Positions 34,718 through 64,000 of a stretch of 64,000 bases of DNA are shown here, piece by piece. Source of the DNA: Clavaria fumosa (taxonomy: Eukaryota; Basidiomycota; Agaricomycetes; Agaricales; Clavariaceae); contig OX637799.1 of the NCBI GenBank assembly GCA_951802425.1, positions 2,418,001-2,482,000 on the forward strand, in the 5' to 3' direction. The notes beneath the pieces are model-generated. The model was not told the DNA's origin, ran no database searches, and was given only the letters and a program-made list of their open reading frames with translations. Position numbers and translations under genes: made by a program. Each line of letters begins with the position of its first letter. Position 1 is the first letter of the stretch.

Positions 34718-35007
34718 TATCAGACTGGGTCTCACACAACTTAAGCATAAGGTCATGACGACAATACTAAGATAAGGGGAAAAGGGTACAAGAATGGAAA
34801 AGACGTAGTATATATAGCGAACGCTTCGGCATTTGCCGGCGTTCCCACGCTCGGACCTCTCGGATCACGTGATGCGCCCAGGCCCAGGTCATGTGATCTT
34901 ACGATTATGTAATCTGACCACAGCCACAGGTCATGTGACCTTCCAACAACCCTCCCCAGTTTCTCCACAACTGCACTTTGGGATGGCTTACATAAGCGAT
35001 CCTAACA
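34718..35007 (-). repeat. Chromovirus A 5' LTR (290 bp)
   Basis: Same ends as the 3' LTR, one VNTR unit, and an extra ACCTCTCGG. Adjacent to target duplication GGCAT. Confidence 0.93.
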
Positions 35008-35012
35008 GGCAT

Positions 35013-35288
35013 TTGATAAATATTTGTCTGTATTTGAGCTTATTTATTCCATATCAACAAAACACAGTCATTGAGTCTAGTTAACTATTTGATAGCAACT
35101 ACTGCACCAAGTTCATTATGCTCAAACATATTCCTGGAGAAATTGCTGTGGCTCACAATAACTAAATTTGATGTCAGCAATTACTGGCAAAAGTTAAACA
35201 TAATTATGTACTTTTGCCAGGGTTTAGTGTATTTTCTTAACTGGGACTATTGCTACTCCAAGCAGGGCACTCCCTCATGACCCTATAG
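35013..35288 (+). other. Element D intron-like spacer, second half
   Basis: AT-rich, no gene. CTTAAC near 35236 could serve as a branch site, and CCCTATAG ends at 35288, in phase with gag. Confidence 0.45.
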
Positions 35289-36586
35289 GGATCGAAGCAA
35301 CAGTTCAACCTGCCCCTCACCTTGAAGTACCAGTCGAACCCTTCCGTATTCCTCAACTGAAAATGCAACCAGTACCCCTGATGGAGACGCAACCAGCATC
35401 CTGCCCCCCATCTCAGGTTGAAGCCCCACAGGTCCCTCTGATCCCTCCTATGCCTCCACACCTTGCCGCCACGCTTCGAGATGAGGCTCCTGGTACCCAC
35501 CACCACCACCATTATTACCAAGCTCCTCCTTCTGAAGGACCATCGGCTTGAGATGCCTTTGCTCAAGAATCGAAACTCGATACCAGGCGCCCCAAACCAT
35601 TTAATGGTCATGACCAGTGTAAATGGAAGCCTTTTGTCACAGAATGCCTTATGACTTTCTTCACAAAACCCATAACCTTCCAGGGAGACCATGAGAGGGT
35701 TACTTTCGTGGCCTCTTACCTCACAGACACCACGCAGAGCCACTACACCTCCCTCCTTCAATTCAATGCTGAACATCCGGCCCTACACTCCTGGGAAGGA
35801 TTCATCCACAAGTTTGGAGGAATGTTTGGAGTGGTTAACACACAGATTGAAGCTGACCAGAACCTCTGTATGTTGCAGATGGGCGAAAACAAACAGTTCT
35901 CAAACCACATTATCCATTTTGAATCATTTGCCTTCGAATCTAACTGGAATTCAGCTGCTTTGCAATCGGAGCTCTATTGTTTGCTGTCCACATGCATAAA
36001 AGAGGCCATGAAAGTCATTCTGCAACCTACGATGTACCAAGAACTTCGAGATTTGGTGATGCAAATAGACCAGAGGCACTGGGAGTATGAGAGTGAGACT
36101 CGCCAAACTCAAATCCATGCTAACCCTCCTGCTCCTTGTCCCCCTGCTCAACAAGGTGGAAATCATCCCTTTACTCAACAAGGTGGAAATTGCAACTTTC
36201 AAACAATGTCGCGACCCTATCCCGCTGCTGGCAACAACCCTACAACGCCCCAACCAGCTGCAGGAAACCCCACGACCACACTGTGACCTGCCAATCTGCC
36301 TCGCCAGCTGAATCCGAACCCGAATCCACTCTATGTGCCCCTCAGCAATGAAGAACGAGAACGACGCCATCAGGGAAACCTATGTTTGAGATGTGGAAAG
36401 CCAGGACATTTTAGCGCAGCATGCCCCGACTGATGAGTAGCAGGATGGGCCATGTTTATGCTCGAGGAAGGAGAGGAAGACTTTCAGGAAGCATATGAAG
36501 TTGAGGAAGAAGTGGAAGAGCATGAGGATGACCTGCACGAAGAGTTAAATGAGGAAGCGGCTCAGGAGCTTCTGGGGGAACTCTGA
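35289..36586 (+). pseudogene. Element D gag, main part with zinc knuckle
   Basis: One frame from 35289 to TGA 36584-36586, with TGAs at 35549, 36284, 36430 and 36433. It contains RPKPFNGHDQCKWKPFVTEC and FVASYLTDTTQSHYTSLLQFN, a retrotransposon gag fold, and then the knuckle [14 protein letters not shown] (about 36385-36426). An acidic Glu/Asp-rich tail precedes the end. Pol lies in the -1 frame and overlaps at a GGGGG run (36574-36578), so frameshifting is the likely route to Gag-Pol. Confidence 0.85.
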
Positions 36587-39500
36587 GTCGTGATGATGAA
36601 CCAACCCCCATACTCGCGTGGGCCACGACTAGTTCCTCCTCTTCTCAGTTTCTTTGCGACTTGTCTAATACACCTATTGCTTCCCAGTCCTCCCAGTCTT
36701 TCCTCATAAAAACACAAATCCCAGATTTTGGCTCAATTCCTCTCAATACTCTTGTGGATTGCAGCGCATCCATGAATTTCATGAATTTCACACTCGCGAA
36801 CACCTGTCTGAACCTCCTAATGCCGCTCCCACAACCTTTACCACTTCAATACTTTGACGGAAGTTCTTCCAGTTCAAACATCACTCATTATGTCCTTGCT
36901 AATATGAAATTTCCTGACAATACCATCCAATCCATCAAGTTCCTTGTCACCAAGACCCATCCTCTCACCCCTGTGGTTCTAGGACTTGATTGGTTGCGAA
37001 CCTGGAACCCCAAGATCAATTGGACTAACCTCTCCCTTAGTTTCGGACAGACAGCCCACTCCGCGACTATCCCCCTCACCATTCTGGATGTGAAACCCCT
37101 GAGTAAACCCTCCCCCAACCTAGTGAACTCGACCCCGAAACCCCCTAAACCCTTACGAGTTCAACTAGTCAAGGCCACTAGGCTTTGTCACTTGGAGCAA
37201 CAAGGAGAATTTATAGGACTCCTGTATTTCCAACCTGCAAACAACCCCTACGACGACGAATCCTTGCTCACGAGTTCTGCGACCACCCAAACCTCTCCCC
37301 CAAAACCAGAAGAAATAGTTCCACAAGAGTACCACAACTACATGGACGTATTTTCCGAAGCCCTAGCCCAGGAACTACCTCCGCACCGCAACTACGACCA
37401 CCGAATCGAACTTGAGGAAGGTGCGACACCTCCTCACGGGAAACTATACAACATGTCAGAAGTGGAGTTAAAGACATTGAAGGATTATTTGGATGACATG
37501 TTGGAGAAAGGCTTCATTTGGCCATCAAAGTCACCCACAGGCACACTGGTACTCTTTGCAAAAAAGAAAGATGGAAGCCTTCATCTCTGTGTCGATTACT
37601 GGGGCCTCAACAAGATAACCTGAAAGAATCGCTACCCAATCCCCTGAATCAAGACTCTCGTCGACCAATTACAATCAGCCAAAGTCTATTCAAAAATTGA
37701 CCTTCATGCTGGGTACAATAATGTGAGGATAGCTGAAGGAGATGAGTGGAAGACTGCCTTCCGCACCCGCTATGGCGCGTTTGAATATCTTGTTACGCCT
37801 TTTGGACTCACAAATGCACCTGCGACCTTTCAGCATCTCATGAACGATATATTCCACGACTTGGTTGACGTTAATGTAGTAGTCTACCTCGACGACATCC
37901 TGATTTACTTGGACAACCTCGAACAACATTGCGACCATGTCCGAGAGGTCCTACGACATCTATGTAAGGCAGACCTACACGCGCGACCTGAGAAATGTGA
38001 TTTCCACACTGTGACAGTTGAATACCTCAGGGTTATAGTGTCTCCCAATGGAATTGCTATGGACCCTTCGAAGATACAGGCTATTCTAAGTTGGCCCATA
38101 CCCACGAAGATCCACGACCTTCAGAGCTTCTTAGGCTTTGCTAATTTTTATCAAAGATTCATAGATAACTATTCTGGCATTGTTATTCCACTTACATGAC
38201 TCCTCTGGAAGGATACACCTTGGGAGTGGAGCCCGCGATGTCAACAAATCTTTGAAACACTCAAGCAAGCCTTTACCAAAGCTCCCATCCTCCAACACTA
38301 TGACCCCGATGACCCCATTACCCTAGAATGCAATGCTTCTGATTACGCCATAGCAGCCATTCTCTCCCAAACTGATCCTGTGACTAACGAGCTATGTCCT
38401 ATTGCCTTCCATGCATGTACAATGATCGCCGCAGAACTCAACTACAACATTTATGACAAAGAGCTCCTCGTGATACATGAAGCGTTCAAGCAATGGAGAG
38501 TGTACCTCGAAGGCGCGAGATACCAAATCCAAGTTTTCTCTGATCACAATAACTTGCGATATTTTACCACCACGAAACAACTCAGCCACTGACAGGCCTG
38601 CTGGGCAGAGTATCTTTCCAGTTTCGACTATGTGATTCATTATCAAGCAGGAAAGCTAGGCACGAAGCCAGATGCCCTCACGTGGTGACCCGATGTCTAC
38701 CCGAAGAAATCCGACCAACCCACGACCAATGCACAAAACAATAAAGTCATGATACCACTGGAACTCCTTCGAGCAGCCGTCATCCTCAACAAAGAAGCTC
38801 TATTCTCATGAATCTGACACACTCCTCATGACCTTTACTTCTCCAGAAAGTCTCAAGACACTTCACAAGGTCGCGACAAGGCATTCTCGCTTTCACCTGA
38901 TGGTTCACTATTACTTCGAGATGGCAAAATATATGTTCCTGACCACGACACTCTCCGATTCGATATTCTATGCTCCAACCATGACCACAAATTACGAGGA
39001 CATCCAGGTATAAGGAAGACAACCCAGCTAATAAATAGGTTGTTTTTCTGGCCAGGACTCAGAAAGGACGTAACCGCCTACATCTGTGGTTGTCACACCT
39101 GTGCAAGGGCAAAACCTGTCTGACACAAACCCTACGGACTCCTCAAGCCCTTGCCCATAGGTGAACAACCTTGGTCTTCAATTTCGATGGACCATATCGA
39201 AGCCCTCCCCCTCTCTGCAACCTTTGACTCGATTCTTGTTATCGTCTGCTGACTTATGAAGCAAGCAATCTTTATCTCCTCCAACACTACCGACACAGCG
39301 AAGGAACTGGCCCAACACTTCATCACCCACGTCTTCTCAAAGCATGGGCTACCTGCGGACATAGTGTTGGATAGAGGAAGATTATTCATTTCTAAGTTTT
39401 GGTCTTCATTATGTCAGGCTCTGGATATTACTTCCAATCTCTCCACAGCCTACCATCCTGAGACCGACGAACAAACCGAACGGGTCAATCAAATACTCAA

Positions 39501-40251
39501 GCAATACATATGAATCTATATGAACTACCAGCAGGACGATTGGACCTACCAACTTCTGCTTGCCAAGTTCGTATACAATAATACCCCCCATAGTGCGACT
39601 GGTGTCTCCCCGTTCTTCGCAAACAAGGGATACCACCCAAGACTCACGATTTCCCTCAAAGGGATACCCGCACATGAGGCCCACATGGTCGCAACCAATC
39701 TCAAGACGCTCCATCAGCACTTACAAGATCAACTCAAGGTCGCAAACAAGGCCTATTCGCGCTTCACAGACAGGAAGAGAGAGATTATGCCGGATTGGAA
39801 GGAAGGGACGAAAGTGTGGTTAGACCTGCGAAATGTGAAGATGAAGAGACTGATGAAGAAACTGGATTCGAAACGAGCCAGACCTTTCTCTATACTCACG
39901 AAAGTTTCGACTCACGCTTATCGCCTCCAGTTGCCAAAATCGATGCAAGGAATTCACGATGTCTTCCATGTTTCATTACTCGAGAAGGTCTACAATGACG
40001 CCTTCCCCCAGTGACAACAACAACCCCTGCCCCCTATCGAAGTTGATGGTGAACAACACTACGAAGTTGCCAACATACTAGATTCTCAAAGGAGGGGTAG
40101 GAAAGTGCTCTACCTCGTATGTTGGGAAGGTTACGGACCTGAGGATGACACCTGGGAACCCATCGAATCACTTTCCAGCTCGAAAGAACTCCTCGAGGAC
40201 TTCCACGCAGCATACCTGGAAAAAGCTCGCGCAACTCATGCAACTCAATAA
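36580..40251 (+). pseudogene. Element D pol: protease, RT, RNase H, integrase, chromodomain (11 TGA codons)
   Basis: The frame stays in phase from LSRDDEPTPIL to TAA 40249-40251 with no frameshift. It is broken by TGA at 37621, 37645, 38197, 38590, 38686, 38809, 38815, 39121, 39250, 39511 and 40012, and by no TAA or TAG. Protease NTLVDCSAS (Asp-Ser-Gly changed), [14 protein letters not shown], RNase H LECNASDYAIAAI (Asp-Ala-Ser changed to Asn-Ala-Ser), integrase zinc HPGIRKT ... CGCHTCARAK, core [31 protein letters not shown], chromodomain YEVANILDSQRRG ... YLVCWEGYGPEDDTWEP. E has CGA or CGG at several matching sites. Confidence 0.92.
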
Positions 40252-40354
40252 CATTTTCCTCATCTCCCTTTTCGTCTTTTCTTCTCACTTTCACACTTCA
40301 GAATCACAACAGAATATATACGCAACAAAAATACAACAAGAAAATTTTTATCTA
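40252..40354. other. Tail-to-tail spacer between D pol and the accessory gene
   Basis: 103 bp between the two stop codons. The equivalent spacers are about 98 nt in E and 67 nt in F. Confidence 0.7.
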
Positions 40355-42361
40355 CTAGTCACGAGCCCTTTCCTTCCCCTTTTGCGACCCTCCTGCCCCT
40401 TCCCCACCTTCTATACCTGCTTCATTCATTTCCTCTTCCTCTCCCTCTTTGTCCTCCAACAACTGCCCAGTCTGATCGACCCGTGGGAACCCCATTAACT
40501 CGGCGCGCAACTGATCTTGCTCCTTCTCCACCCATTTTGTCACCAATGACAACTCCACCCCACTCGACAGCTTACGAAGTAACTCTTCGTAACCAAAGAA
40601 CACCACTTCTAAACCATGACGCCCCCATGCACGGAATTCGCTGATTCGTCCATGTAACGCCAGCAAAACCCTGTCCATCCCTAGCAGACTGTCAAACATC
40701 AACTTATTTTTAAATCCAAATGGGTCACTTACTTTCTTTCTCCCCACGCAACCTTTCTAAAGCACTCCTCATCTCCTGCGATTCTCCCCACGCTTCCTCT
40801 AATATCTTCAATGATTCTGAAAACGAAGATCAACATATTTTGACCATCATAATTATGGGACTTACCCTTGTAGTCTCCTCGCAACTTCTCCAACTCAAGT
40901 TGCACCTCTTCCAACTTGCGTTGCATTCCCCGGAGATTGACCTCTTGTTCTAATAAGGAAAAGAAGAAATAAGTTTAAGTATGCATAAAAAACAAATAAA
41001 ACTCACCTTGCCATTCCCCATGGAGAGCCTCGAAATCTCTCTCCACCTCCTCCTTCCACGCCGTCAACTCTGCGACCTTTACATCCACCCCACTGGATGC
41101 AGATGCCTTTGTCGAGTCCACTCCCATTTCCTTAACCTCTCTGCCCTTCCCTACAGACTCGTGACTTTAGTAAAGTCATGGAATACTAGGAAAATATTGG
41201 AACTTACCTTTTCCGCCCTTTTGCATCTCTCCCCCCCTCACTACCTCCAAATCTCGGCACGCCTCCTTCAACTTTTCCTCTTGCCCTGGATGATACAAAA
41301 TTTAATTGGCGATGCGATAACATAAAAAGCAATTACTACTCCAGTAATCCCTCTGGAGGATTTCAAAATTCCTTTCGAATTCCTCGAATTCGTCCCTTAC
41401 TGCAGCCAACTCCACCTCCAGCTCCGCCTCCCTCAAGGACTTTGGCACCCACACTATCTTCTGCATGGGCTCCGCGACTTGCTGTTGGAGCGTCGCAAGC
41501 TCCCTCTCGAGATTGGCCCTTGGGACCAAAGTCCCCGCGACCTTCTCCTGTTCCTCCACCAACTCCCTTGATGATGCTGGCTTCGCGACTCACCTCCTTG
41601 TTGACAGACCAGGCGTCAGTGACTGCGACCTTGTCCTCACCCGTTTTCCATGTCCTGCTTGTGTTGGGGTCCCTGGAATCGGTAGGATGGGAAACTTTCC
41701 CCCCACTCAGCTCACAGCCTTGGGCGTCACTGTGCCCACCGTTTCCGATCCTTCTGCGCACTTCAGTGCCTCATCAATCTTCGCATCATCCCAACCGTAT
41801 TCATTCTTGACGTGCCATCGCCGAAATTCCTGGACCCATGAGCATTTCCCATGGTCCTCCGTGCACTGACGACATTTGCTGGCAGCACTGCGCTCGCACT
41901 GCCGGCCTTTTGCGACACAGTTGTCGCAATCCTGTGATTCAGCAATTAGAAGAGATGGAGGAATGAGAAATACTGCTATGCACCTCTCGCTCCATCCCAT
42001 TCCACTCCTTATTTTCTTTCACTGATCCGATTTTCTTCCATGACTTTAGGAACTTCGTGGGCGACAGATCAGTCTTGTCCGTGACATCGCCCCCCACTTT
42101 GCTGGGGCTTGCGATGTCGTCCGCCGTCCTGCTTGGGCCCGCGACGTCGCCTGCTGCCTCGCCCATGCCTGTGACGTTCCCTCACGCCTTATCACGACCC
42201 GCAGCTTCACTTCGACGGCACGCACATCGCGCCTGTTCAGCCTTTTAACAGGCCAGTGCATCTGCCAGAACCCCCTTGTTGATGACGGGCTCTGTCTCAT
42301 CGAAGATGTGCAGTTCGCACTTGAGTTCAGTTTTGTGTTGTTTTACAAAGGTGGAGACCAT
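40355..42361 (-). pseudogene. Element D accessory gene: Zn2Cys6 protein with many introns (antisense, broken)
   Basis: ATG 42361 lies in CCACCATGG. Exon 1 (42361-41984) has TAA at 42247 and TGA at 42184, where E has CAA and CGA. Intron 1 (41983-41932, GTGCAT...CACAG, 52 nt) contains a stop, so splicing is required. Exon 2 begins with the intact cluster CDNCVAKGRQC ... CRQCTEDHGKC (CX2CX6CX7CX2CX6C) and later has a TGA in AVS*VG where E has CGA. Further short coiled-coil exons with GTAAGT/GTGAGT donors follow. The last exon (about 40747-40355, TAG) keeps GLEVVFFGYEELLRK and PRVD, matching E. Same site and direction as in E and F. Confidence 0.82.
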
Positions 42362-42477
42362 GGTGGTTGGACTTAGAGAAAATTCTCAGGTGTCGTGACC
42401 TGATCAACAAACATTGCATTGACTAATCATCATGTGACTTCCACTCTTGCAGGGCTCGAGGCTTGAAGGGGGGGTAA
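42362..42477. promoter_or_regulatory. Upstream region of the D accessory gene and polypurine tract
   Basis: 116 bp between the accessory ATG and the 3' LTR. It ends with GAAGGGGGGGTAA (42465-42477), the purine tract on the plus strand. E has the same distance and wording (60500-60615). Confidence 0.65.
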
Positions 42478-43073
42478 TGTCAGGACCCATCCATTTTTAC
42501 CTATCCAATTCGACTCTATCATCACATACGGACATCCTGACACCCCCTCACCACCTTGTGGACCACCCTACGCACTTCTGAAACCCGCCTTCTCTTTCCG
42601 GAAGCCTCCCCGACCTCCCCCGCATTCACACAACACTCATGACCACCATGCCATACTTGTGACATCTCCCTCCACCTCACCCATGCGTATACTCTGCCTG
42701 GACCCACCACCTCGACACATGATACGCTGTTGCACATCTTCTTCAGCTGACACATGACTTGCCACGCAGCACCCCTGGCGCCACCACTACTAGCGCTAAT
42801 ACATTACCAGCGTTATCCACGTGACTTCCCACCCAAGCGTCACCTGCATCACTAGCATCACCTGCGTCACCACCACCACTCACGTGACCACCCTTGGACC
42901 TCATGACCTTAATGATGAAACACACCACCGGTGGCCAGTTGAGCACTACTTCAAATTATGCTTCCTTTCTTCTCCCCAGTCATCTATAACTATGATACTC
43001 ATGACCAAAGCACCTCTTCGTAGTTATAGTTACCCATATGATTATTTAACTAAGTCGTGACCCATGACCAGTC
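42478..43073 (+). repeat. Element D 3' LTR, first part
   Basis: TGTCAGGACCCATCC..., matching the E LTR (59014-60499). Cut by element C at CAGTC and resumed at 55167. Confidence 0.9.
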
Positions 43074-43361
43074 TATCAGACTGGGTCTCACACAACTAAA
43101 GTGTAAGGTCATGATGACAATACTAAGATAAGGGGAAAAGGGTACAAGAATGGAAAAGACATAGTATATATAGCGAACGCTTCGGCATTTGCTGGCGTTC
43201 CCACGCTCGGACCTCTCGGATCACGTGACGCGCCCAGGCCCAAGTCATGTGATCTCCCGATTATGTAATCCTCCACCACAGGTCATGTGACCTTCCAACA
43301 ATCTTCTCTAATTTCTCCACAACACCTCCTTTTGGGATGGCGTAGGTAAGCAATCCTAACA
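43074..43361 (-). repeat. Chromovirus C 3' LTR (288 bp)
   Basis: In sense, TGTTAGGATTGC...CCCAGTCTGATA. Ends match those of A. Confidence 0.93.
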
Positions 43362-45265: not shown

Positions 45266-48200
45266 TCAAGGCTGGGCGTCTCGACCGGCCAATCGCGCCT
45301 TATCCGGGTGTTTGAGGAAGAAGTCGCGGAGGAGAATTGCGGTGTTGGTAAGGTTCTGGCGGGGTTCCCAAGTATTCTCTTTGATGGGGTAGCCTTGCCA
45401 CTTTACCAGATACTTCACTCCTCGTCCTACTTTCTTCACATCCAGGATCTCTTCGACCTCATACTCCAAATGGTCGTCGTCGATGGTCGGGGGGGGCGGA
45501 GGTGGTCGGGCTTGAGAAGCGAAAGAAGGAGGGATGAACGGGGTGAGGAGCAACTCATTAAATACGTCATGGATTCGCCAGGCCGGGGGCAGCTTGAGGC
45601 GATAACCAGCTGGCCCCACCTTCTCTATGATGACGAAGGGTCCAGCGCGTTTGTTGTCGAGTTTCTTGTTTGGGCGGACCATTTTCAGGTTTCGCGTGTC
45701 GAGCCAAACTAAGTCTCCCTTCCCATACTCGCGGCTGGGTCGTTTTCCGCTGTCGTAGCTTTTCTTCATTGCTAGCGTGGCTTTCTCCATGGCTTCTTTG
45801 GCAGCACGTCGCGACTCTTCCAACTTCGCCATCCACTCGTCTGCAGCTGGGTTCACTTCTGTCCGCGGGTGTATACCTCCATTCCAGGGGTGTCGGCCGC
45901 AGTCCAAGAAGAAGGGTGTATAGCCTGTCGCGGAGTGTTCCCGGTTGTTCAACGCAAACTCTGCTGTGCTCAACCACTCTGCCCAATCATCCTGGAGATG
46001 GTCGACATATCCTCGCAGGTAGGTCTCGATCTCCTGATTTACTCGCTCTGTTTGTCCGTCAGTTTGGGGGTGGAAGGCGGTACTCGGGTTAGCCTTTATC
46101 CCAATCATCCGGTAGAATTCCTTCATGAATCGAGAGACGAATTGTGGGCCACAGTCGCTGACAACCTTCTGGGGAATTCCGTGGTTCCGGAATACTCGGT
46201 CGCGGAGGATCCTCGCAGCTCCCAGGCTGGTCAAGTTGAAACCGATCGCTTCGATGAGAGTGTGCTTGGTGAATTTGTCTACGATTACAAGGATGGAGTC
46301 GAACCCGCAGGACTGTGGTAACGGTCCTACTATGTCCCAGCTGATCGCCCACCATGGGCCGTTTGGGACTGGGTGCGGGTACAGAGGCGCGGCGCGTTTG
46401 GTTCGATCGGGCTTGGTTCTCTGGCAACCTTCGCACCCGGATACGTACTTCTCCACATCCTTCACCATCTCGGGCCACCAGTAGGCCTTGACCATTGCGG
46501 CTTTCATTTTCTTTTTTCCGGGGTGTCCTGCGGTGGGGAGGTCATGTTCATAGTTGAGCACCACCTCGCGAACGCTCGCGGGTATCCACACGGTGTTGTT
46601 TCTCCACCAAAGCCCGAGGCGGTCTTGCGTCCAACTGTCATCAATCTCCGTGGGCTTCGTGACATATTCCGCGCTCTTTTTCTGGAGGAGCGTCTCCATT
46701 TCCGAGGTAAAGCTGGTGCGGACGTTCATGTCAGCGGGGAGCATCTGGACAGGGGCATCTTCTTCGGCAGCGTCTCCGTAGTCTGGCCTTCGCGAGAGGG
46801 TGTCGGCTTTGGTGTTGCTCTTGCCCGTCCAATACTTGATTTCAAAGTCAAAACTTTGGAGTTCTCCGTACCAGCGTACCTGTCGTGGCTTCAGTTTTTG
46901 GGGCTTTCTGAAGTATTGCAGGTTGGCATGGTCTGTCCAAATCTCGAAGGTCTTGTCCACTCCCACTAGATATGCTCTCCACTCTCTTAGAGCCCTGATG
47001 ACCGCGAGGAGTTCTTTGTCGTAGACATCATAGTTTTTCTCGGCAGCTGTGAGGGCCTCGGAGATGTAGTCGACCGGTCTCCAGGTTCCATCAGGCTGCT
47101 GCTGCGAAAGAACACCACCCGTCGCGAGGTTACTCGCATCCGTTTCTACCTTCCATCTGCCCGAGTCCTGGGGTAGGGCGAGGACTGGGGCTGAGACAAG
47201 CGCTCCTTTCACATCCAGGAAGGCCGTGACCTGTTCGCTCTGCCAACACCAGGGGACGTTGCCGGTGAGCTTAAACAGGGGCTTGGCTCGCGTGGACAGG
47301 TTGGGGATGAATCTCCGCAAGTGGTTGACCATTCCCAAGAAGCGCTGGAGTTCTTTGATGTTTCGGGGCACTGGCCAGTTTCGGATAGCTTCTGCCTTGG
47401 CCGGGTCGTGCTCGAGGCGATTATGCGAGAGCCTGAGCCCAAGGTAGAACACCTCAGCCTTCTCGAACTCACACTTGCTTAGCCAGAGGCATAGCCCATT
47501 TTCACGGAATCTCTGCAGTACCCGATCCATCCAGTAGCGGTGGGTCGCGAGGTCGTCTGCGAAGATGATGACGTCATCGATGTACGCGAGTACGTGTCCG
47601 CTGGCGATCTCCTCTCTCAGGATGTGGTTCATGAACCTCTGGAAGGTCGCAGGGGCATTCTGGAGTCCGAACCACATTACCGTAGGTTCGAACAAACCTC
47701 GCGATGTTAGGAACGCGCATCTCTCCTGGTGCCCCTCCCACAACCTCATGGACGGAAATCCCCCCTTCGCATCGATCTTGGAGAAGATCCTGGCTCCACG
47801 CAGCTTGTCTACACAGTCGCGGATGCGTGGCAACGGGAACTTGTCTTTGATCAAAAATGAGTTGAGGCGCGAGTAGTCGATGATCGGTCGGAGTTTGTCC
47901 TTTTCTTGCTTAAAGAAGAACGGACTGGCATAGGGCGATTTGGAGTGTCTTATCCTTCCTGATGCGAGCTGTTCGTCAATCCACCTATTCATCTCAATCG
48001 TCTCTTCTCTCGTCAGCGAGTACAGTTTGGAGGATAAGTGGCCCGGGTCCTCGCGGAACTCGATCTTAATGTCAAAATCGGGTCGCGGTTTAGGTAACTC
48101 GTCCCACTTGGCTTCACTAAAGACCGTTGGGTATAGTGACGGCCAGTCAGGCATGTCTCCGGTGTCCGAAAAGCGGATATCCATGGTTGTTCGCAGTGCA

Positions 48201-48813
48201 TTGTCCCAATCACTGCTCCTTGGGTAGGCCCAGGGACTCGTGAGGAGCGGGTCGAGGTGGCAACTCGCGGGGCAGCGTTTGAAGGAGACCTTCCCCAGTG
48301 GCCAATCGATCTCCGGGTTGTGTTTGGATAGCCAGTCGTGTCCCAGGATGATCTTGTGCGACTTGGCTGTTCCGAGCAAGAAGTGTATTCTCTCTTGGTG
48401 GTCCCCTATGGTCAACAGGAGGTCGATGCCGTAGCGAATAGGCCCGCTTTTGTTTGCCGATCCATCCACATTGTATACCTTGATCAGGTTCTGCAGCGGC
48501 ACAGGTTCTAGTCCAAGCTCCCTGCACCAGGCTAGGTCCATGAAGCAGTTAGTACATCCCGAATCGATCAGGACTTTAACGCCTCCCCACTCAGCCGTGG
48601 TTAGAGTCTCAAAGTGCGCCGGTAGGGTCAACTCTCTCTTTCGCTTCTTTGGTTTCTCCTCCGCGACTTTTGTTGTTCTGTTGTCCTCAAGTTCATTCGC
48701 GCTCCGGGCATGTCTCCGTTGCAAGATCGTGTATTTGGGTATACTTGCTACGGGTACAGGGGTGGGGGCGGGAACGAGACTTGTACTGTTACAGAGACGC
48801 CAGTTCGGACTTA
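45266..48813 (-). CDS. Chromovirus B pol polyprotein
   Basis: Open without stops to TAA 45268-45266. The frame extends upstream past 48724 and overlaps the end of gag in the -1 frame, so no pol start codon is needed. Domains: protease VLIDSGCTNCFMDLAW, RT LAYIDDVIIFADD (about 47584), RNase H KVETDASNLATGG, integrase zinc HDLPTAGHPGKKK ... CEGCQRTK, core WDIVGPLPQS, VVSDCGPQF, HPQTDGQTERVN, chromodomain LEYEVEEILDVKK ... YLVKWQGYPIKENTWEP. All catalytic residues I can check are present. It makes cDNA and integrates it; the chromodomain should bind a methylated histone. Likely functional. Confidence 0.93.
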
Positions 48814-49881
48814 CTGCGTCTCTCCTCCAAAATCCTGCTCCTGGGTGGGAGCCGGCGGGAGCTGTTGTTGGTGTTGCTGGGCCTGTGGGGCACCAGCCAT
48901 CTGCCTTTCTCTCTCGTAGATCGCGAGCCTGTCGCGAAGTAGCGCGAGTTCGTTCTCATATTCTTCCACTTCTACTGGGCCAGGGACCATCGCATGTACC
49001 TGCGGCCTCGGGACATAGGGTCGCGAGTCCGGGAGGTGGCAGTTGCGGGCAATGTGTCCTACCTGGCCACAGCGGAAGCATCGACGCTTGGCCGCAGGAG
49101 CTCGCGTCTGGTCTACGATCATCCGGTCACCGGCACCAGCGGGACGGGGCATGATCTGTGGAACAGGAGCGCGTTGCTGCTGTTGTGGAGCGGAGGGGAA
49201 GCGAGGCGCGGGTCGTGGGGGGTTCTGGTTCGGATAGCGCGGGGGTGTAGGCAGCGGTCGCGACTGTTGGAACTGAGGCGGGGCCGGGCGGCTGGCGTTC
49301 TGCTCGCGGATGATCGCGTCAAGCCGTCGTTGCTGAGCGTCCAGGGTCTCGACCAGATGCTTCCACTGGGCATAGGTAACTGGCATGGGGTTGAAGTTGT
49401 AGACCCGCGTGGTCAACCTCCGGTTGAGATTCGTCTCCAGCCAGTGGATGAGCACGTCAGAGTCGTCGACCAGGTCCAGTTCCGCCTTGCGCATCAGCGT
49501 TTCGAAAAGGGCGAAGAACTCTGCGGCTTCCAGTGCTCCCTGTTTCAGCTTCGCTATGTCGTTTAGGGCGGTCGCAGTAATGTTTGGGTCGTCGAAGGCT
49601 CTCCGCAGATCCACAACGAAATCTTCCCAAGTTCCTGCCACTCCAGCATTCAGGATCTCGTCACCTCGCATGTTCGCCCATTCCACAGCGAACCCTTCTC
49701 CTGTAATCTTACTCAGCGCAAATAGGATCTTGTTCAGGTCACTGGCATAGAGCCCCTGGTTTCCCAGGAACTGTAGTCGGAGGGACCTGAGGAAGGTCCG
49801 GAAGTTCTTCTTGTTTCCATCAAAAGAGGGAACGGCTAGGTCCAGCCTCGGCATTGGGGCTGCGGGGACGGCGTCCGCCAT
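48811..49881 (-). CDS. Chromovirus B gag (356 aa)
   Basis: ATG 49881 (MADAVPAAPMPRLDLAVPSFDG) to TAA 48813-48811. Capsid-like helical region (FLRSLRLQFLGN, AEFFALFETLM, LIHWLETNLNRRL), Pro/Gln-rich linker, then knuckle C268-X2-C271-X4-H276-X4-C281. The frame is also open upstream of the ATG through a Pro-rich stretch that overlaps the 5' frame. Pol follows in the -1 frame. The stop lies inside CAGTAAGTCC, where GTAAGT also resembles a splice donor. Confidence 0.92.
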   Translation of the reverse strand: MADAVPAAPMPRLDLAVPSFDGNKKNFRTFLRSLRLQFLGNQGLYASDLNKILFALSKITGEGFAVEWANMRGDEILNAGVAGTWEDFVVDLRRAFDDPNITATALNDIAKLKQGALEAAEFFALFETLMRKAELDLVDDSDVLIHWLETNLNRRLTTRVYNFNPMPVTYAQWKHLVETLDAQQRRLDAIIREQNASRPAPPQFQQSRPLPTPPRYPNQNPPRPAPRFPSAPQQQQRAPVPQIMPRPAGAGDRMIVDQTRAPAAKRRCFRCGQVGHIARNCHLPDSRPYVPRPQVHAMVPGPVEVEEYENELALLRDRLAIYERERQMAGAPQAQQHQQQLPPAPTQEQDFGGETQ

Positions 49882-55161: not shown

Positions 55162-55166
55162 CAGTC

Positions 55167-56125
55167 AGGTTCGCAACCTTATTTATGTTTCCCTTACCCC
55201 TCACGACCTTAGTAGAATATGCACATGGTCACTTATGACTAGCTATACCCTGTACTACTATAGTTCTGTTGCTTGGCGACCTCTGTACTTTTCCTTTTCT
55301 GTTATACTCTCTGTAAGTACATATATAAAGTCTCACATGTACTTACGGTACTCTAGACTTGATATTGATGCACTTTGGTTTAAGCTTGAGGCCACGATGC
55401 CCTTTGAGCTTGGAACCATCGCGATTGATAGGTCTTGTCTCTCTTGGTGACCTCAAGATCATCAAGACACTTCTACTCTATTCTAACTTGTCCTCCGCGC
55501 TCATATAAACTTGCACACTTAAGTATTCTCTCCTATTCGTCTTGATACTGATTCCTTCGAACCTCACAGGTTCTCTCATCAGTTGACAAAGTCATTGCCT
55601 TCACTGATACACCTCTCGACATTGTCGTGACTACCCGCAACTCTCTCAACATCATCGTGACTACCTGTGACTCTCTCAACATCATCGCGACTACCCGTGA
55701 CTCTCTCAACATCATCGCGACTACCCGCGACTCTCTCAACATCATCGCAATTACCCGCGACTCTCTCAACATCATCGCGACTACCCGTGACTCTCTCAAC
55801 ATCATCTATTTCTCCCTCCTCATCTATTTCTTCCTTCACGCTTCATTGGTCGACTTCGCAACCTTCTCAGCATTACCTATTTCTCTCAACTTGTCCTTTT
55901 CCCTCTCTATACTTCATCTACTGACTTCGCGACCTTCTCAGCAACATCTCCCTCCTCTCTACTTGTCTCTCTTCATTCTCACATCTTCTTAGATGTCCTC
56001 GCGACCTTCTGGGACTGAGCATTATCAACTGTGCTCAACAGTTGATTGGTCTTAACAAGTTTCCAGAACTGGTCACCAACAAGTCGACCTTTGGTATTAC
56101 TTACAAGATGGGACAGGCCCTAACA
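55167..56125 (+). repeat. Element D 3' LTR, second part
   Basis: Continues the D LTR after C to GACAGGCCCTAACA, the same end as the E LTR. TATA GTACATATATAAAG near 55318. Total D LTR about 1555 bp. Confidence 0.9.
55621..55800. repeat. 30-bp tandem repeat, six copies, in the D LTR
   Basis: Six units of about ATCATCGCGACTACCCGTGA plus CTCTCTCAAC with CpG to TpG/CpA variants. The E LTR has only a diverged single unit here. Confidence 0.93.
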
Positions 56126-56541
56126 CAGTGTTACAACCGTTACCTGCATTACCAGCATTACCCATGTGACCTCCTGCCCAAGGTCACCTGCATCACTACT
56201 GTCACCCATGTGACCACTCTTATGACCTCACGACCTTAACACTCAAATGCACCACCAATGGTCAGCTGTATATTCCTTTCAAATATGCCTTCCTTCTCAT
56301 CCCCAGTAGTCTATAACTACACTAGTTATGATCCGAAGACTCCCCTGTAGTTATAGTTACATATATGATTATTTAACCAGGTCACAACCTTACCTATGCA
56401 TTCCTAACCCCTCATGACCTTAGTAGAGCATGTGCATAGTTACTATATGACTAAACATACCCCGCACTACTATAGTTCTGTTGCCTGGCGACCTCTGTAC
56501 TTTCCTCTTTCGTTATACTCTTCTGTATGCATGTATATAAG
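56126..56541 (+). repeat. D/E-type LTR fragment
   Basis: Begins mid-LTR (GTTACAACCGTTACCTGC; compare E near 60150) and ends at the TATA region CATGTATATAAG, where J starts. A truncated relic of an older copy. Confidence 0.82.
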
Positions 56542-57780: not shown

Positions 57781-58985
57781 TCAAACAAAAGACACTGTGA
57801 GAGAACATGCTGCCTGAGGGTGCTTGTGGTGGAAGTCCGCGATGGCCTTGGCCGCATCTTTCAGGTTCGCCTTAGGTTCCCACATGTTGTCCTCATGGGG
57901 ATAGCCTGTCCACTTGACAAGGTATTGTAGTTTCCATCTATGCCTCTGACTTTTCAGTACCTCTTCCACATCATATTGTATGTGGTCATCAATTAGTTTG
58001 GGGGGTGGGCGTTTATCTGGTGTCTGATTAGGGAATTTACCTTCTACATATGGCATGAGCAGTGCTTCATTGAATACTGGGTGAATCTTCCATGTGACTG
58101 GTAGGTTGAGTCGGTATGCAGATGGTCCCACTTTTTCTACTACTGCGAAGGGGCTGACTCTTCTGTCTGTGAGTTTTTCTGATGGTCACTCCGTGTTTAG
58201 GTTTGTGGCATCTAGCCAGACCAGGTTTCCCTTTTTGTAGTCAAGTGTTTTTTTGTTTTGTGTTTGTCATAAGTGGTTTTCATGTACTGTGCAGCTTTTT
58301 CCATGGCTTTCTTTGCGTTTTCTCTGGCTTTCTGTAGTTTCATGGCAAAGTCAGAGGCTTCTGGTGTGTGTGGCGTGTCGGGCAGGCTAATGTTCCCCAT
58401 ACAAGGGTGGAATCCATAATTTAGGTAGAAAGGGCTATACTTGGTGGCGGAATGTTGCCAGTTGTTTAGAGCAAATTCTGCTGTGGGTAACCAGTCTGAC
58501 CAGTCGTCTTGCATGAAGTCAACATATGATCGCAAGTATATCTCGATATCCTGGTTCATCCTCTCGGTTTGTCCATCAGTCTGTGGATGGTAAGCCGTAC
58601 TTGGGTTTCCTTTTATACCAATGATCTTGTAGAACTCTTCCATGAAGTTTGATACAAATTGAGACCCTCGGTCACTTATTACTTTGCAGGGTACTCCATG
58701 GCTGCGAAGGACTCGATCTTGCAAGATCCTGGCTGCTCCTAGAGCCATGAGTTTTGTGTCCATAGCCTCTAGCAAAGTCATCTTCATAAGCTTGTCACAT
58801 ATCACAAGGATGGTGTTGTGCATAGCAGATTTTGACAATGGCCCGATAAGGTCCCAAGTAATCATGTGCCATGGGCAAGGTGGTATCGCATGTGGATGTA
58901 GAGGTGCACGTCATTTCATATGGTCAGGTTTTGTTCTTTGGCATTTCTCACAACCAGCTACATATTCCATTACGTCCTCCTTCAT
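57781..58985 (-). pseudogene. Gypsy J pol: integrase and chromodomain, frameshifted
   Basis: Integrase zinc end WPGMKEDVMEYVAGCEKCQRT, a TGA in HMK*RAPLHPH, core MITWDLIGPLSKS, VISDRGSQF, YHPQTDGQTERMN, then a frame break near 58250-58170, and the chromodomain IQYDVEEVLKSQRH ... YLVKWTGYPHEDNMWEP to 57781. Ends LTVSFV. Confidence 0.87.
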
Positions 58986-59013
58986 TCCTGGCCAAGTAAA
59001 TTGTCGAGCAACA

Positions 59014-60499
59014 TGTTAGGGCCTGTCCCGTCTCGATAGTAGTGCCGGAGATCGACTTGTTGGTGACCTATGCTGGAAACTCGCTAAGACCAATCAACTG
59101 TTGAGCACAGTCGAGAATGCTCGGTCCCGGAAGGTCGCGAAGACGTCTGAAAAGATGTAAGAGCGAAGAAAGACAAGTATAAAGGAGGAAGACGTCGTTG
59201 GGAAGGTCGCGAAGTCGGTAGACGAAGCATAAAGGAGGAAATTGACGAGGAGGGGGGAAATGGGTGATGCTGAGAGGGTCGCGAAGTCGACCGATGAGGC
59301 GTGAAGAAAGGAATAGACGAGGTGGGAGAAAGTGATAATGCTGAGAAGGTCGCGAGGTCGACCGACGAAGCATAGAGAAGGAAAAAGACGAGGTGAAAGA
59401 AATAGAGAATGTTGGAAGGATCGCGGTGGTCGCGACAGTGTTGAGAAATGTGTCAGTGAAGGCGATGACTTTGCCAACCGATGGGTGAACCTGTAGGGTT
59501 CCAAGATCAGTACCAAGACGAATAATAGAGAATACTTAGATCGTGCGAGTTGTAGGAGCACAGAGGGTGAGTTAGAACAGAGTAGAGTGTGTTTTGGCGA
59601 TCTTGTGGTCACCAAGAGAGACAAGACCTATCAATTGCGATGGTTCCAAGCTCAAAGGGCGTACTAGCCTAAGCTTAAACCAATGTGCGTCAATATCAAG
59701 TCTAGAGTACCATAAGTACATGCGAGACCTTATATACGTACGTAGAGAGAGTATAACGAAAAAGGGAAAGTACAGAGGTCACCAGGCAACAAGACTATAG
59801 TAGTACGGGGTATGTTTAGTCGTAAAGTGACTGGGCGCGTGTTCTACTAAGGTCGCAAGGGGTTAGGTATGCATAGGTAAGGTCGCGAAGATGACCTGTC
59901 ACGGGTCGCAACCTAGTTAAATAAGTATATACATCGCTATAACTACGGAGGGATTCTCAGATCATAAGTAACATAATTATAGACAACTGAGGAGAAGAAG
60001 GGACGCATATTTGAAGTGTACATACAGCTGACCATTGGTGGCGCGTTTGAGTGTTAAGGTCGCGAGATCATAAGAGCGATCACATGGGTGACACTAGTGA
60101 CGCAGGTGACCTATGGGCGGGTAGTCACGTGGGTAACGCTGGTAATGCAAGTAACGGTCATAACGCTGGTAACGTATTGGCGCTGGTAGTGGTAGCGCCG
60201 GGGGTGCCACGTGGCAAGTCACGTGCTGGTGGAAGTAGACGCGTATCGGTGTGTAGCGCGTAGGATTGGTGGGTCCGGGTGAAGTATGTGCGTAGGGTGA
60301 AGTAATAGGAAGCATCGCGAGTACAGCATGGTGGTCGCGAGTGTCGTGTGAGCGCGGGGGAGGTTGGAGAGGCTTCCGGAAGGAGACAGCGGGTCCTGGA
60401 AGTGTATAGAGGGACTAGCGAGGTTGTAGAGGGTCGTCGGGAAGCTCGTGGATGTGGGTGAAGTCGGCTTGGGCAAGGAAAAATGAATGGGTCCTGACA
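59014..60499 (-). repeat. Element E 3' LTR (1486 bp)
   Basis: In sense, TGTCAGGACCCATTC...GACAGGCCCTAACA. Contains TATATAAGGTC near 59735 and a tandem array with period about 72 bp around 59120-59430. Confidence 0.92.
59120..59430. repeat. ~72-bp imperfect tandem array with GTCGCGA cores
   Basis: GTCGCGA at 59134, 59206, 59278 and 59349, and a GATCGCGG variant at 59419, so spacing is 71-72 bp. More GTCGCGA sites occur singly near 59429, 59882, 60058 and 60333. Confidence 0.8.
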
Positions 60500-60615
60500 T
60501 TACCCCCCCTTCAAGCCTCGAGCCCTGCAAGAGTGGAGATCACGTGGTGATTAGTCAGCGCGATGTTTGTTGATCAGGTCACGACACCCGAAATTTTTCT
60601 CTAAGTCCAACCACC
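60500..60615. promoter_or_regulatory. Polypurine tract of E and upstream region of its accessory gene
   Basis: In pol sense GAAGGGGGGGTAA abuts the LTR. On the plus strand this 116 bp leads to CCACCATGG at 60616. No clear TATA box within it; a promoter could extend into the LTR. Confidence 0.6.
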
Positions 60616-62724
60616 ATGGTCTCCGCTTTCATCAAACAACACGAAACTGAAACCAACAAGGACGAGAACGAGGTCACGCGCGAAATGCGCATATACGATG
60701 AAACGGAACCCAGCCTCAATCTGGGGATCCTAGAAGACGCGCTGGCCCGTCAAAAGGCTGAGCAAGAGCGATGCGCGCGTCTTCGCGAAGCCACGGGCTG
60801 CCGCAAGACACGAGGCAACGTCACGAGTACGAATAAGACTGTGAGCGACGTCGCGGAGTCAAGCGGGGTGGTGGAGAACATCACGGGCGAGGCTGACCTG
60901 TCGCCCGCGGACTTCCTAAAAGCTTGGAAGAAAATAGGGTCAGTGATGGAGAACAAAGAGTGGAACGAAAGGGAGCGAGAGGTGCGTAATAGTAGTTCTC
61001 ATTCCCATTCGTTTCTTCTGATTGTTACATTCCAGGATTGCGATAACTGCGTCGCAAAGGGCCGACAGTGTGTGCGCAGCACTGCCGGCAAGTGTCGCCA
61101 GTGCGCAGAGGACCATGGGAAGTGTTCCTGGGTCCAGGAATTTCGTCGATGGCGCGTCAAGGCCGAATTTGGGTGGAGCGATGTGCAAATCGATGAGGCT
61201 CTGCGGCAGGCAGAAGCACCAGGATCAGCTGCGACAGCGACCCCAACAGTCGTGAGTCGAGTGGGAGCCAAGCTCCCCACTATTACGATTCCGGGGACCC
61301 CAATGCGAGCGGTACGCGGAAAGCGAGCAAGGACAAGGTCGCGGTCGCCGATGCCTGGTCCATCAACAAGGAGGCAAGTGGCGAAGCCGTCGTCATCGAA
61401 GGGGTTGGTGGAGGGAGGAGGAAAGGTTGCGGGGACCTTGGTCCCCAGGACGGATCTGGAACGGGAGCTCACAACGCTCCGTCAGCAACTCGTGGAACCC
61501 ACGAAGAAGATAGCGTGGGTATACAAGTCGCATCGGGAGACGGAATTGGAGGTGGAATTGGCGGCGGCTAAGCGTGAGTTGGAGGCATTACGGTGGGGCA
61601 AGAAAGGTGAATATCAGTTTGTCCTGGTTCCCGTAGTTTCATACTGAGCTCACGACTTTTATTGGCAAAGGCAAGGAGGTCGCGGAAGTCACGGAATTGA
61701 CGACGCGGGCTGAGGGAGCGGAAAAGGAGTTTGAGGCACTCCATGGGGAGTGGCAAGGTAAGTTTTTACTCGAATTGTTGCCTTGTAGATTGACTTCCAT
61801 GTGATTCAGACCAAGAAGTCGAGTTGAGAAACGCGCGCCGGGAGTTGGAGAAGTTGCGGAAGGAGAAAGAGGGTAAGTGAAATAGTCACGAGTATGAAGT
61901 TGACTCATTCGCGTCTATAGGATTGTTAATGGGGGCGGAGGGGACGTGCAAGGAGTTCGAGGAGGTGAGCAGGGTGATTGCAGCGATGAAAAAGGAGGCG
62001 GAAGGTAAGTCATCATTCTACTCCGTGAGATCGCGAATTAATCTTCTTATTGGTTTAGGTTGGAGGGTGGAGTTGGGGGACGTCCGGCGAAGATTGGAAG
62101 AGACCGAAGAGTCGGAGAACAGTAAGTTTTAGTGGTTGCGGGTATGAAGGTGGACTAATCTGTTATTTGTGTTTATCTAGACCATAAGGTCGAGCTGGAG
62201 GAGGCTGAGGAATCGGAACGAAGTAAGTTCCATAGTCGCGAGTATAACACAAACTAATCTTTGTTTTGTAGGTTTGTTCGCAACTGTAGAGAGGATGGAA
62301 AAGGAGTTGAAGGCGTTGAGGGAGCGGGAAAAAGGTAAGTCCTCGCGGGTTTTGTTTTTAGCAACAAACTGAAGATTGGTTTTTAGAGTTGCGCGACCAA
62401 TGTGCGAGTATGGTCGGTGAGCTCCGCGAGGCTCGCTTTCGAGGACGGCGAGGCCTCGAGACGGTCTTCTTCGCCTATGAAGACCTTTTGATGAAGTCGC
62501 CGGAAGAACTCTCGTCGTGGGTAGAGCAATGGGCAGAGCAGGAGCAACGTCGCGTGAGGAGGGAGCTGTTGGATATTCCAAGGGTGGACAATTGGGGTTT
62601 TGAGTTGAAGGCTCCCGAGGCTGGAGAGGAGGAGAAGGGGGAAAAGGAAAAAGTCGCGAGTGTGGAAGGTGGGGAAGGAGCAGAAGGGTCGCAAAAGGGG
62701 AAGGAAAAAGCTCGCGACCAGTAG
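60616..62724 (+). CDS. Element E accessory gene: Zn2Cys6 coiled-coil protein, nine exons (558 aa)
   Basis: Exons 60616-60981, 61036-61606, 61671-61757, 61810-61872, 61921-62004, 62059-62121, 62181-62222, 62272-62334 and 62387-62724. They add to 1677 nt in one open frame. Introns are 48-64 nt with GT..AG ends, mostly GTAAGT. Exon 2 opens with C124-X2-C127-X6-C134-X7-C142-X2-C145-X6-C152, a fungal Zn2Cys6 cluster, then basic Ser/Arg sequence (KRARTRSRSP). Exons 2-8 encode Glu/Lys/Leu heptad-rich coiled coil. Exon 9 has GLETVFFAYEDLLMK and IPRVDN, shared with D. Convergent with pol, stops about 98 nt apart. Likely a nuclear DNA-binding protein; role in the element's cycle unknown. A captured host gene is the alternative. 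Confidence 0.82.
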
Positions 62725-62822
62725 ATAAAAATTTTCTTGTTGTATTTTTATTGTGTATATTTGAATTGCTGTGAAGTCCGAAGTGAGAAAGTGACGAAAA
62801 AACGAGAAAGAGGCGAGGAAAA

Positions 62823-64000
62823 TTATTGAGTTGCACGAGTTGCACGAGGTTTTTCCGGGTAGGTCGCGTGGAAGTCCTTGAGGAGTTCCTTCGAGCCGGA
62901 AAGTGATTCTATTGGTTCCCAGGTGTTGTCCTCGGGTCCGTAACCTTCCCATCGTACGAGGTAAAGCACTTTCCTACCCCTCCTTCAAGAATCTAGTATG
63001 TCGGCGACTTCATAATGTTGTTCGCTGTCGACCTTGATAGGGGGCAGGGGTTGCTGTTGCCGCTGGGGGAAAGCGTCGTCGTAGACCCTTTCGAGTAACG
63101 AAACATGGAAAACGTCGTGAATTTCTCGCATCGATTTCGGTAACTGGAGACGATATGCGTGAGTCGAAACTTTCGCGAGTATGGGGAAAGGTCCGGCTCG
63201 TTTCGAGTCCAATTTCTTCATCGGTCTCTTCGTCTTCACATTCCGCAAGTCTAACCACACCTTCGTTCCTTCTTTCCAGTCCGGTGTAACCTCTCTCTTC
63301 CTGTCCGCAAAGCGCGAGTAGGCCTCGTTCACGACCTTGAGTTGATCTCGTAAGTGCTGATGGAGTGTCTTGAGATCGGTCGCGACCATGTGGGCTTCAT
63401 GCGCGGGTATCCCTTCGAGGGAAATCGTGAGTCTTGGGTGGTATCCCTTGTTCGCGAAGAACGGGGAGACACCAGTCGCGCTATGAGGGGTGTTATTGTA
63501 TACGAACTCGGCGAGCGGGAGTTGGTAATTCCAGTCATCTTGCTGGTAGTTTGTTTTGTATATATTCGGATATATTGCTCTAGAACCTGGTTGACTTGTT
63601 CTGTTTGTCCGTCGGTCTCGGGATGGTAAGCTGTGGAGAGATTTGAAGTAATATCCAAAGCTTGGCATAACGAAGACCAAAACTTAGAAACAAATAATCT
63701 TCCTCTATCCGACACTATATCTGCGGGTAGCCCATGCTTTGAAAAGACGTGGGTGACGAAATGCTGGGCTAATTCTTTCGCGGTGTCAGTAGTATTGGTA
63801 GAGATGAAAATCGCTTGTTTCGTAAGTCGACAGACAATGACGAGGATCAAGTCAAAGGTCGCAGAGAGAGGGAGGGCTTTGATATGGTCCATCGAAATTG
63901 AAGACCAAGGTCGCTCACCTATGGGCAAGGGCTTGAGGAGTCTGTAGGGTTTGTGTTGGACGGGTTTTGCCCTTGCGCAGGTGTGACAACCACGGACGTA
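62823..64000 (-). pseudogene. Element E pol: integrase and chromodomain
   Basis: From the window edge: CHTCARAKPV, SMDHIKALPL, KELAQHFVTHVFSKHGLPADIV, VSDRG, YHPETDGQTEQVN. A small insertion near 63556 (ATACAAAACAAACTACC against ATATGAACTACC in D) shifts the frame. Then NYQQDDWNYQLPLAEFVYNN and the chromodomain start YEVADILDS, TGA at 62987-62985, RRGRKVLYLVRWEGYGPEDNTWEP, TAA 62825-62823. Better preserved than D. Confidence 0.9.

Follow-up and report, generated by a model that had tools for sequence, protein, structure and literature searches.

How can a gene with many introns persist inside a retrotransposon, and what might it do there? Both questions are raised by a locus in the fungus Clavaria fumosa, in a stretch of 64,000 nucleotides that we analysed as a whole (contig OX637799.1, positions 2,418,001 to 2,482,000; hereafter the window). 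Here a gypsy retrotransposon, element E, carries between the end of pol and its 3' LTR a gene on the opposite strand. We followed this antisense gene through the same genome (48.8 Mb, 17 contigs) and compared its copies with each other, with the pol genes beside them and with the LTRs of the family.

The antisense gene and its element

Translation reproduces the gene as a preliminary description of this locus had given it, with nine predicted exons that form one frame of 558 aa on the strand opposite to gypsy, from an ATG at 60616 in CCACCATGG context to a stop codon that ends at 62724 (plus strand). The exons measure, from 1 to 9, 366, 571, 87, 63, 84, 63, 42, 63 and 338 nt. All eight introns are GT-AG and 48-64 nt long, and introns 2-8 are all in phase 1. 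Exons 3-8 encode 29, 21, 28, 21, 14 and 21 aa, which are whole heptads in five of the six. A sense-strand ORF at 62177-62908 lies opposite exons 7-9. Along the window, the order at element E is an LTR (59014-60499), a PPT (GGGGGGGTAA) just inside it, the antisense gene and then the minus-strand pol. The features are as follows.

59014 to 60499, minus strand: element E's 3' LTR (1486 bp), which contains GGTCGCGA sites and, at 59202-59425, a tandem array
59133 to 60340, plus strand: eight GGTCGCGA sites, at 59133, 59205, 59277, 59348, 59428, 59881, 60058 and 60333
60500 to 60615, plus strand: leader of 116 bp, from the LTR edge (PPT) to the ATG
60616 to 60981, plus strand: exon 1, with the ATG; kept in aligned copies and in predicted proteins P0001 and P0003-P0009
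61036 to 61606, plus strand: exon 2, with the six-cysteine cluster (61039-61125), a WVQEFRRW block and a basic stretch
61671 to 61757, plus strand: exon 3, coiled coil, 29 aa
61810 to 61872, plus strand: exon 4, coiled coil, 21 aa
61921 to 62004, plus strand: exon 5, coiled coil, 28 aa
62059 to 62121, plus strand: exon 6, coiled coil, 21 aa
62181 to 62222, plus strand: exon 7, coiled coil, 14 aa; one exon fewer here in copy L039
62272 to 62334, plus strand: exon 8, coiled coil, 21 aa
62387 to 62724, plus strand: exon 9, a conserved block modelled as three helices, then a charged tail
62725 to 64000, minus strand: C-terminal end of pol (integrase, SH3_Tf2-1), broken, running on past the window
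35552 to 40014, plus strand: gag-pol of element D, same family as E, decayed
40358 to 42350, minus strand: diverged second antisense gene, in element D, with a cluster match at 41566-41931 and an exon 9 match at 40358-40657; 5' end approximate
55164 to 56541, plus strand: older LTR of the same family, in opposite orientation to the LTR of E and 79-83% identical to it in longer pieces; TCGCGA sites kept, low CpG

Element E itself is dead: its pol has stops and a frame change, another gypsy interrupts its gag, and the 15 kb examined contain no 5' LTR, although the antisense frame is intact. Gag, RVT_1, RT_RNaseH, Integrase_H2C2 and SH3_Tf2-1 domains were matched in pieces of E and of another copy, L013, and matches of the family to Asp_protease_2 and rve fell below the cut-off. 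Retrotrans_gag and a C-terminal Chromo domain were seen in L013; in E a stop precedes the chromodomain. Because L013 shows this chromodomain beside gag, RT, RNase H, integrase and SH3_Tf2-1, the family is, by its predicted domains, a Ty3/gypsy chromovirus. LTR pairs were found in the family, and one copy (C12:924) has a 5-bp TSD (CTGTA). As for the neighbours in the window, element D (35000-43300) is a decayed chromovirus copy of the same family in the other orientation to E, with an antisense gene of its own, and the apparent pol of another gypsy (57781-59013) encloses the LTR of element E. Two minus-strand open frames of 1246 and 1229 aa (29737-33477 and 45266-48955) are, judged by length and setting, probably the pol of other, younger gypsy elements.

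Linkage to pol and selection on the frame

The same genome holds at least 97 DNA matches to the antisense gene and, at the protein level (E<=10), 151 matches to the cluster domain (150 of them listed) and 116 to exon 9, the latter including weak matches and pieces of one place. We scored 150 of 1473 candidate pol matches, of which 91 belong to the family of element E (>=70% identity) and 59 to other gypsy families, and paired exon 9 with pol by coordinates. A convergent exon 9 on the opposite strand lies within 3 kb of 83 of the 91 family matches (two of the 91 are pieces of one copy) and of 0 of the 59 others, and in 81 of the 83 pairs its distance from pol is 323-452 bp. With the cluster domain as partner and a limit of 5 kb, the counts are 70 of 91 and 1 of 59. 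Exon 9 was found on the same strand within 6 kb for one pol match. The preliminary description was right, therefore, to treat the gene as part of the gypsy element; the genome search also looked for a gene confined to a host locus unlinked to gypsy, and found it linked to the family pol. Capture by a single copy only is ruled out by the same 83 matches.

Seen from the gene, the scored pol matches include a partner for 84 of the 116 exon 9 matches and none for the other 32. We read three of the partnerless places: L039 (C11:2832738-2835044) is an intact gene of another type, and at L040 and L041 a truncated remnant is still joined to the LTR side. Near-identical places to L039 occur in C4, C1 and C2; the distance to the contig end is about 8.5 kb for the C4 place and about 66 kb for the C11 place. 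L041 (C3:69996-71795) and 23 similar places among the matches listed are short, nearly alike 5' remnants (residues 1-52), with stops in most, and some of them lie near contig ends. Relatives elsewhere comprise nine predicted proteins, P0001-P0009 (sources ena, jgi and src). P0003-P0009 are relatives of exon 1, most of them ending in intron 1; in P0009 we argue that intron 1 must be spliced, because read-through puts the cluster out of frame. In viral contigs, 15 stretches matched the pattern used to search for relatives and 0 were confirmed.

Seventeen of the 21 regions cut from the genome were aligned (L033, L034, L035 and L038 are partial), and dN/dS was computed on 15 of the 17, with L036 and L037 left out. 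Copies of different gene types have a median dN/dS of 0.27 (range 0.20-0.43; 94 pairs with dS>0.2), against 0.985 and 1.08 in shifted-frame controls. Recent pairs (dS<=0.2, n=11) give 0.45, a higher ratio such as dead copies should show. Of the length changes relative to the window copy, 40 of 48 in exons and 7 of 57 in introns are multiples of three, a count that leaves out features under half the window copy's length. The GT-AG donor and acceptor sites are kept in nearly every aligned copy; the chief departure is at the acceptor of intron 2, kept in 12 of 17, where an apparent alternative AG six bases apart keeps the frame. In this intron (61607-61670) the TAG acceptor of other types is TGG in window-type copies, and the next AG lies six bases on. 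The frame conservation across independent copies whose absence would have refuted the preliminary description is thus seen, and by its pattern of substitutions and indels the antisense gene is a protein gene under purifying selection.

Read on the exon map of the window copy, two of the 17 aligned copies (the window's own and L013) contain neither a stop nor a frame break. L039, read with a map of its own (eight exons, 575 aa), is intact as well, which makes three intact copies of two types, with dS of 0.73 between the types. An in-frame stop before the last codon is present in 14 of the 17, and 14 of the 27 stops are changes from CGA to TGA; CpG decay of this kind is the usual mark of methylated transposons. 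Taken together, these observations show how a multi-exon gene, unexpected in retroelements, can persist there, on the antisense strand and under long-term selection. The introns would be retained through reverse transcription of the sense RNA because they lie on the antisense strand.

Gene types, protein and LTR motif

Between gene types, median dS in exons 1-8 is 0.935, against 0.274 in the RT of the same copies, and the gene has the larger value in 62 of 63 pairs; for pairs within a type the medians are 0.116 and 0.194, and the gene has the larger value in 6 of 28. Segment pools here cover 12 rows and 53 inter-type pairs, and sign counts 14 rows and 91 pairs, with L019 and L021, which are not a clade in the trees, placed in one type by hand. 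Identity to E along pol and gag is 82-98% in 13 copies. L025, L027, L029 and L030 mostly drop to about 65-79% in exons 1-8, and L019, L021, L037 and L038 are mosaics against E. The divergent island can reach beyond the gene: the half of the L025 LTR next to the gene has diverged too (66-77% to E). The types were named from the gene alignment, ahead of the trees, which have 14 rows. In the exons 1-2 trees, type A (seven rows) and type E (four rows) are clades with 100/100 support. RT, aligned for 15 of 20 loci (L023, L031, L034 and L035 are without RT, and L033 is interrupted), rejects the type A and type E clades (p-AU 0.013 and 7e-43) and unites L025 with L027, across gene types, with support of 98/92. 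The number of inner-exon modules also differs between types. On these comparisons, the antisense gene is a hypervariable module swapped between pol backbones. No other coding part of the element diverges as fast or is exchanged as much, which hints at an arms race or at a role in telling self from non-self.

What kind of protein does it encode? The spacing of the six cysteines in exon 2, CX2CX6CX7CX2CX6C, fits the spacing rule of fungal Zn2Cys6 proteins (PF00172), and the basic stretch in the same exon is one that we take to be NLS-like. All six cysteines are present in 18 of 20 rows (L021 lacks one, L030 the whole region), and the cluster block is the strictest part of the gene, with dN/dS of 0.12, against 0.16 in RT and 0.25-0.32 in the other parts. 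The long coiled coils of the preliminary description hold up, in that a single heptad register runs over residues 263-462 (200 residues), with LIVMFA at 60% of a/d positions against 20% elsewhere. Its "textbook" zinc cluster and GAL4-type regulator stand for the cysteine spacing and not for family membership. At E<=1, a Pfam scan of the antisense protein gave no Zn_clus match, no bZIP family and no DUF1985; an NCBIfam scan of the window exons given found nothing, and a PDB sequence search with the cluster found nothing significant (best E 1.3). The structure model of exon 2 is poor (pLDDT 55.7). The top PDB match in Foldseek is the Zn2Cys6 protein PPR1, at E=7, and hhalign to four yeast domains aligns the six cysteines with P 0.023 and a probability of 2%. 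The exon 9 model (pLDDT 74.5, three helices) has no Foldseek match with E<=0.001. We therefore call the protein Zn2Cys6-like, a likeness short of proven membership.

The LTRs have a recurrent motif of their own. The commonest 8-mer across 15 LTRs is GGTCGCGA, seen 98 times against 0.8 expected; all 15, of several gene types, carry it, and the LTR of element E has eight sites against 0.06 expected, partly within a 71-bp tandem array. TCGCGA occurs 112 times in LTRs against 4.85 expected (5.1 per kb) and 33 times in introns of the antisense gene against 0.73 (5.4 per kb; none in introns 1 and 6). It is enriched about 6-fold both in exons (78 against 12.7, 2.7 per kb) and in pol/gag (67 against 11.4, 2.5 per kb), and once the definition of the motif allows for decay, the enrichment in introns (79 against 35.6) does not exceed that in exons (206 against 82.2). 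CpG decay in 22 LTRs (one partial) is 0.218 at the motif, 0.341 at other CGCG (p 0.0013) and 0.369 at the rest (p 4e-6), p-values in which neighbouring CpGs and copies are non-independent and four control words have 0 usable sites; the decay-tolerant definition gives 0.222 against 0.380. TCGCGA accounts for 28.6% of the CpGs that remain in the older LTR at 55164-56541, which is not one of these 22; over the window's first 34.5 kb the share is 1.3%. Where the LTR of element D can be aligned (42478-43068) it lacks a strict GGTCGCGA site, and TCGCGA is seen 12 times against 2.0 expected in another gypsy, one that does not have this antisense gene. Because the motif forms arrays in LTRs and loses CpG more slowly, the data point to GGTCGCGA as a functional or bound site. 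Its binder could be a host factor, and slow CpG loss can also reflect selection in active lineages, not protection.

Possible roles and known systems

We give roughly even chances to the reading that this conserved gene of a chromovirus family, with nine predicted exons and antisense between pol and the 3' LTR, encodes a protein that acts in trans on the LTRs of the family and probably keeps up their transcription against host methylation. More tentatively, we speculate that the element carries a self-serving epigenetic regulator: arrays of the CpG-containing GGTCGCGA, in LTRs and in introns, would be bound and shielded from methylation in trans by an antisense, exon-modular zinc-cluster protein whose ancient types are swapped between backbones like immunity or specificity cassettes, a system like that of VANC in Arabidopsis, here in a fungal LTR element. 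The antisense transcript would start in the 3' LTR and be spliced; such a start is likely because only 116 bp separate the LTR edge and the ATG. Its product would be a nuclear dimer that attaches through its zinc cluster to GGTCGCGA/TCGCGA sites, both those of LTRs and those of introns, and binding would keep the motif CpGs unmethylated and the LTRs active, including those of copies without the antisense gene. Gene types would move from one backbone to another through gene conversion or when element RNAs recombine, and new types may escape interference from decayed copies or host counter-measures. With moderate confidence we think an activator or anti-silencer of the LTRs more likely than a repressor, because we see the combination known from VANC: a conserved enzyme, a variable modular regulator, and arrays of a motif in introns and other noncoding DNA. 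Several findings count against a trans-regulator. The motif is common to all gene types and does not co-vary with the protein, TCGCGA is enriched in exons, pol and gag as well, a motif-rich gypsy lacks the gene, and the LTR of element D lacks a strict site. The window copy itself gives no sign of acting, because the pol of element E is dead.

Could the protein instead hold its own element back? A self-repressor would bind or titrate LTR factors and dampen sense transcription, for latency or copy-number control, and the gene types would then be immunity groups. The anatomy of HBZ is shared (antisense, 3' end, presumed 3' LTR start, multi-exon, coiled coil; PMC3185765, in the part available), and the types are old and exchanged, as immunity groups would be. 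We nevertheless think this unlikely, though well worth keeping in mind, since by our reasoning element-level selection favours activators more directly, slow CpG loss at the motif suits protected rather than silenced sites, and GGTCGCGA is present regardless of gene type. An accessory factor of the replication cycle, serving nuclear import, chromatin tethering or targeting of the integration complex, would make sense of the basic stretch and coil, and the integrase chromodomain in the family (L013) means that targeting matters, but it leaves the LTR motif array, CpG retention and type exchange unexplained and seems improbable to us.

It is also conceivable that antisense RNA is the product, acting as dsRNA or siRNA against the sense transcript, as proposed for antisense transcripts of other retrotransposons in the part of PMC7264820 available; codon-level selection, frame-keeping indels and conserved cysteines make this very doubtful. 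A host gene or gene family, kept for the host and hitch-hiking with the element, might leave just such places as the 32 partnerless exon 9 matches and the intact L039 with its near-identical places. However, 83 of the 91 family pol matches carry the gene, nearly all at the narrow spacing given above, the truncated L040 and L041 still have their LTR side, and 16 Pfam Zn_clus places were found in the same genome, none at the listed loci of the antisense gene. We therefore reject a host Zn2Cys6 gene, and we find hitch-hiking in any form hard to credit. The stops in most aligned copies might suggest that the frame arose by chance or was captured as a passenger and has no function, but dN/dS is 0.27 between types, frames are intact in two types well apart in dS, over half of the stops are of the kind that post-insertion CpG decay would give, and the ratio in recent pairs is what dead copies should show. 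We regard this as the least credible account, and at the family level it is ruled out by the contrast between 0.27 and about 1 in shifted frames and by exon changes in multiples of three. The many copies of several types beside matched pol and LTRs in one genome offer a test bed for the question of whether anti-silencing or immunity regulators are encoded by LTR elements themselves.

An antisense accessory gene between pol and the 3' LTR is of a known kind, from plants and from Boty brtn, on the portions of PMC7264820, PMC11963269 and PMC8365987 available. The preliminary description had placed antisense ORFs in plant elements, which is correct, and precedents also exist in a fungus (brtn, PMC7264820, in part) and in HTLV (HBZ). 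In the Boty element of Botrytis cinerea/Sclerotinia, called BcGypsy1 in PMC8365987, brtn is an additional gene that lies in antisense orientation after pol and before the 3' LTR (PMC7264820, PMC8365987). Likened by description, it shares with our gene a fungal LTR retrotransposon, the antisense orientation and the position, whereas a zinc cluster, introns and type exchange are absent from its descriptions in the available parts of those two papers. The antisense ORFs of Retand/Tat elements with TRP28 (PF04195), Grande gene23, RIRE2 and PvRetro13 are likewise accessory genes at the pol-3' LTR position, in most family copies and with predicted DNA binding or nuclear location (PMC7264820, PMC11963269, as excerpted). 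Unlike our gene, they belong to plant elements and have other domains, Retand is of a non-chromovirus lineage, and their descriptions, in so far as available, include neither nine exons nor a six-cysteine cluster.

Among the literature matches listed (titles and abstract starts, with few subscription journals covered), no report of a fungal LTR element with an antisense zinc-cluster gene appeared, nor did a precedent for the zinc-cluster coil protein, the nine-exon modularity or the type exchange, or for a VANC-like system in an LTR element or in a fungus. The hypervariability and exchange of the antisense gene and the LTR motif array go beyond the preliminary description and are new here. The protein resembles fungal Zn2Cys6 proteins (GAL4-type, PF00172) in its CX2CX6CX7CX2CX6C spacing and in having a basic stretch and coil downstream, and differs from them in lacking a Pfam match. 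HBZ of HTLV-1 (HBZ/APH proteins) is a regulator with a coiled-coil zipper, made from a spliced antisense transcript that starts in the 3' LTR (PMC3185765, in part). It is like our gene in being antisense, at the 3' end and coiled-coil, the LTR start and splicing being predicted in our case, and unlike it in being a bZIP rather than zinc-cluster protein, in belonging to a retrovirus and in repressing Tax-driven LTR transcription. VANC, of Arabidopsis VANDAL elements, is a variable protein with repeats and changing exon structure, encoded beside a conserved transposase, and its target is a short motif that recurs in tandem both in noncoding DNA and in introns (PMC5735166, PMC10398659, in the parts available). 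VANDAL is a DNA transposon and VANC has DUF1985, which the antisense protein lacks; VANC and its motif vary together between families, whereas here all sampled types share GGTCGCGA. What the two have in common is a variable modular protein beside conserved enzymes, with a tandem motif in noncoding DNA and sites in introns.
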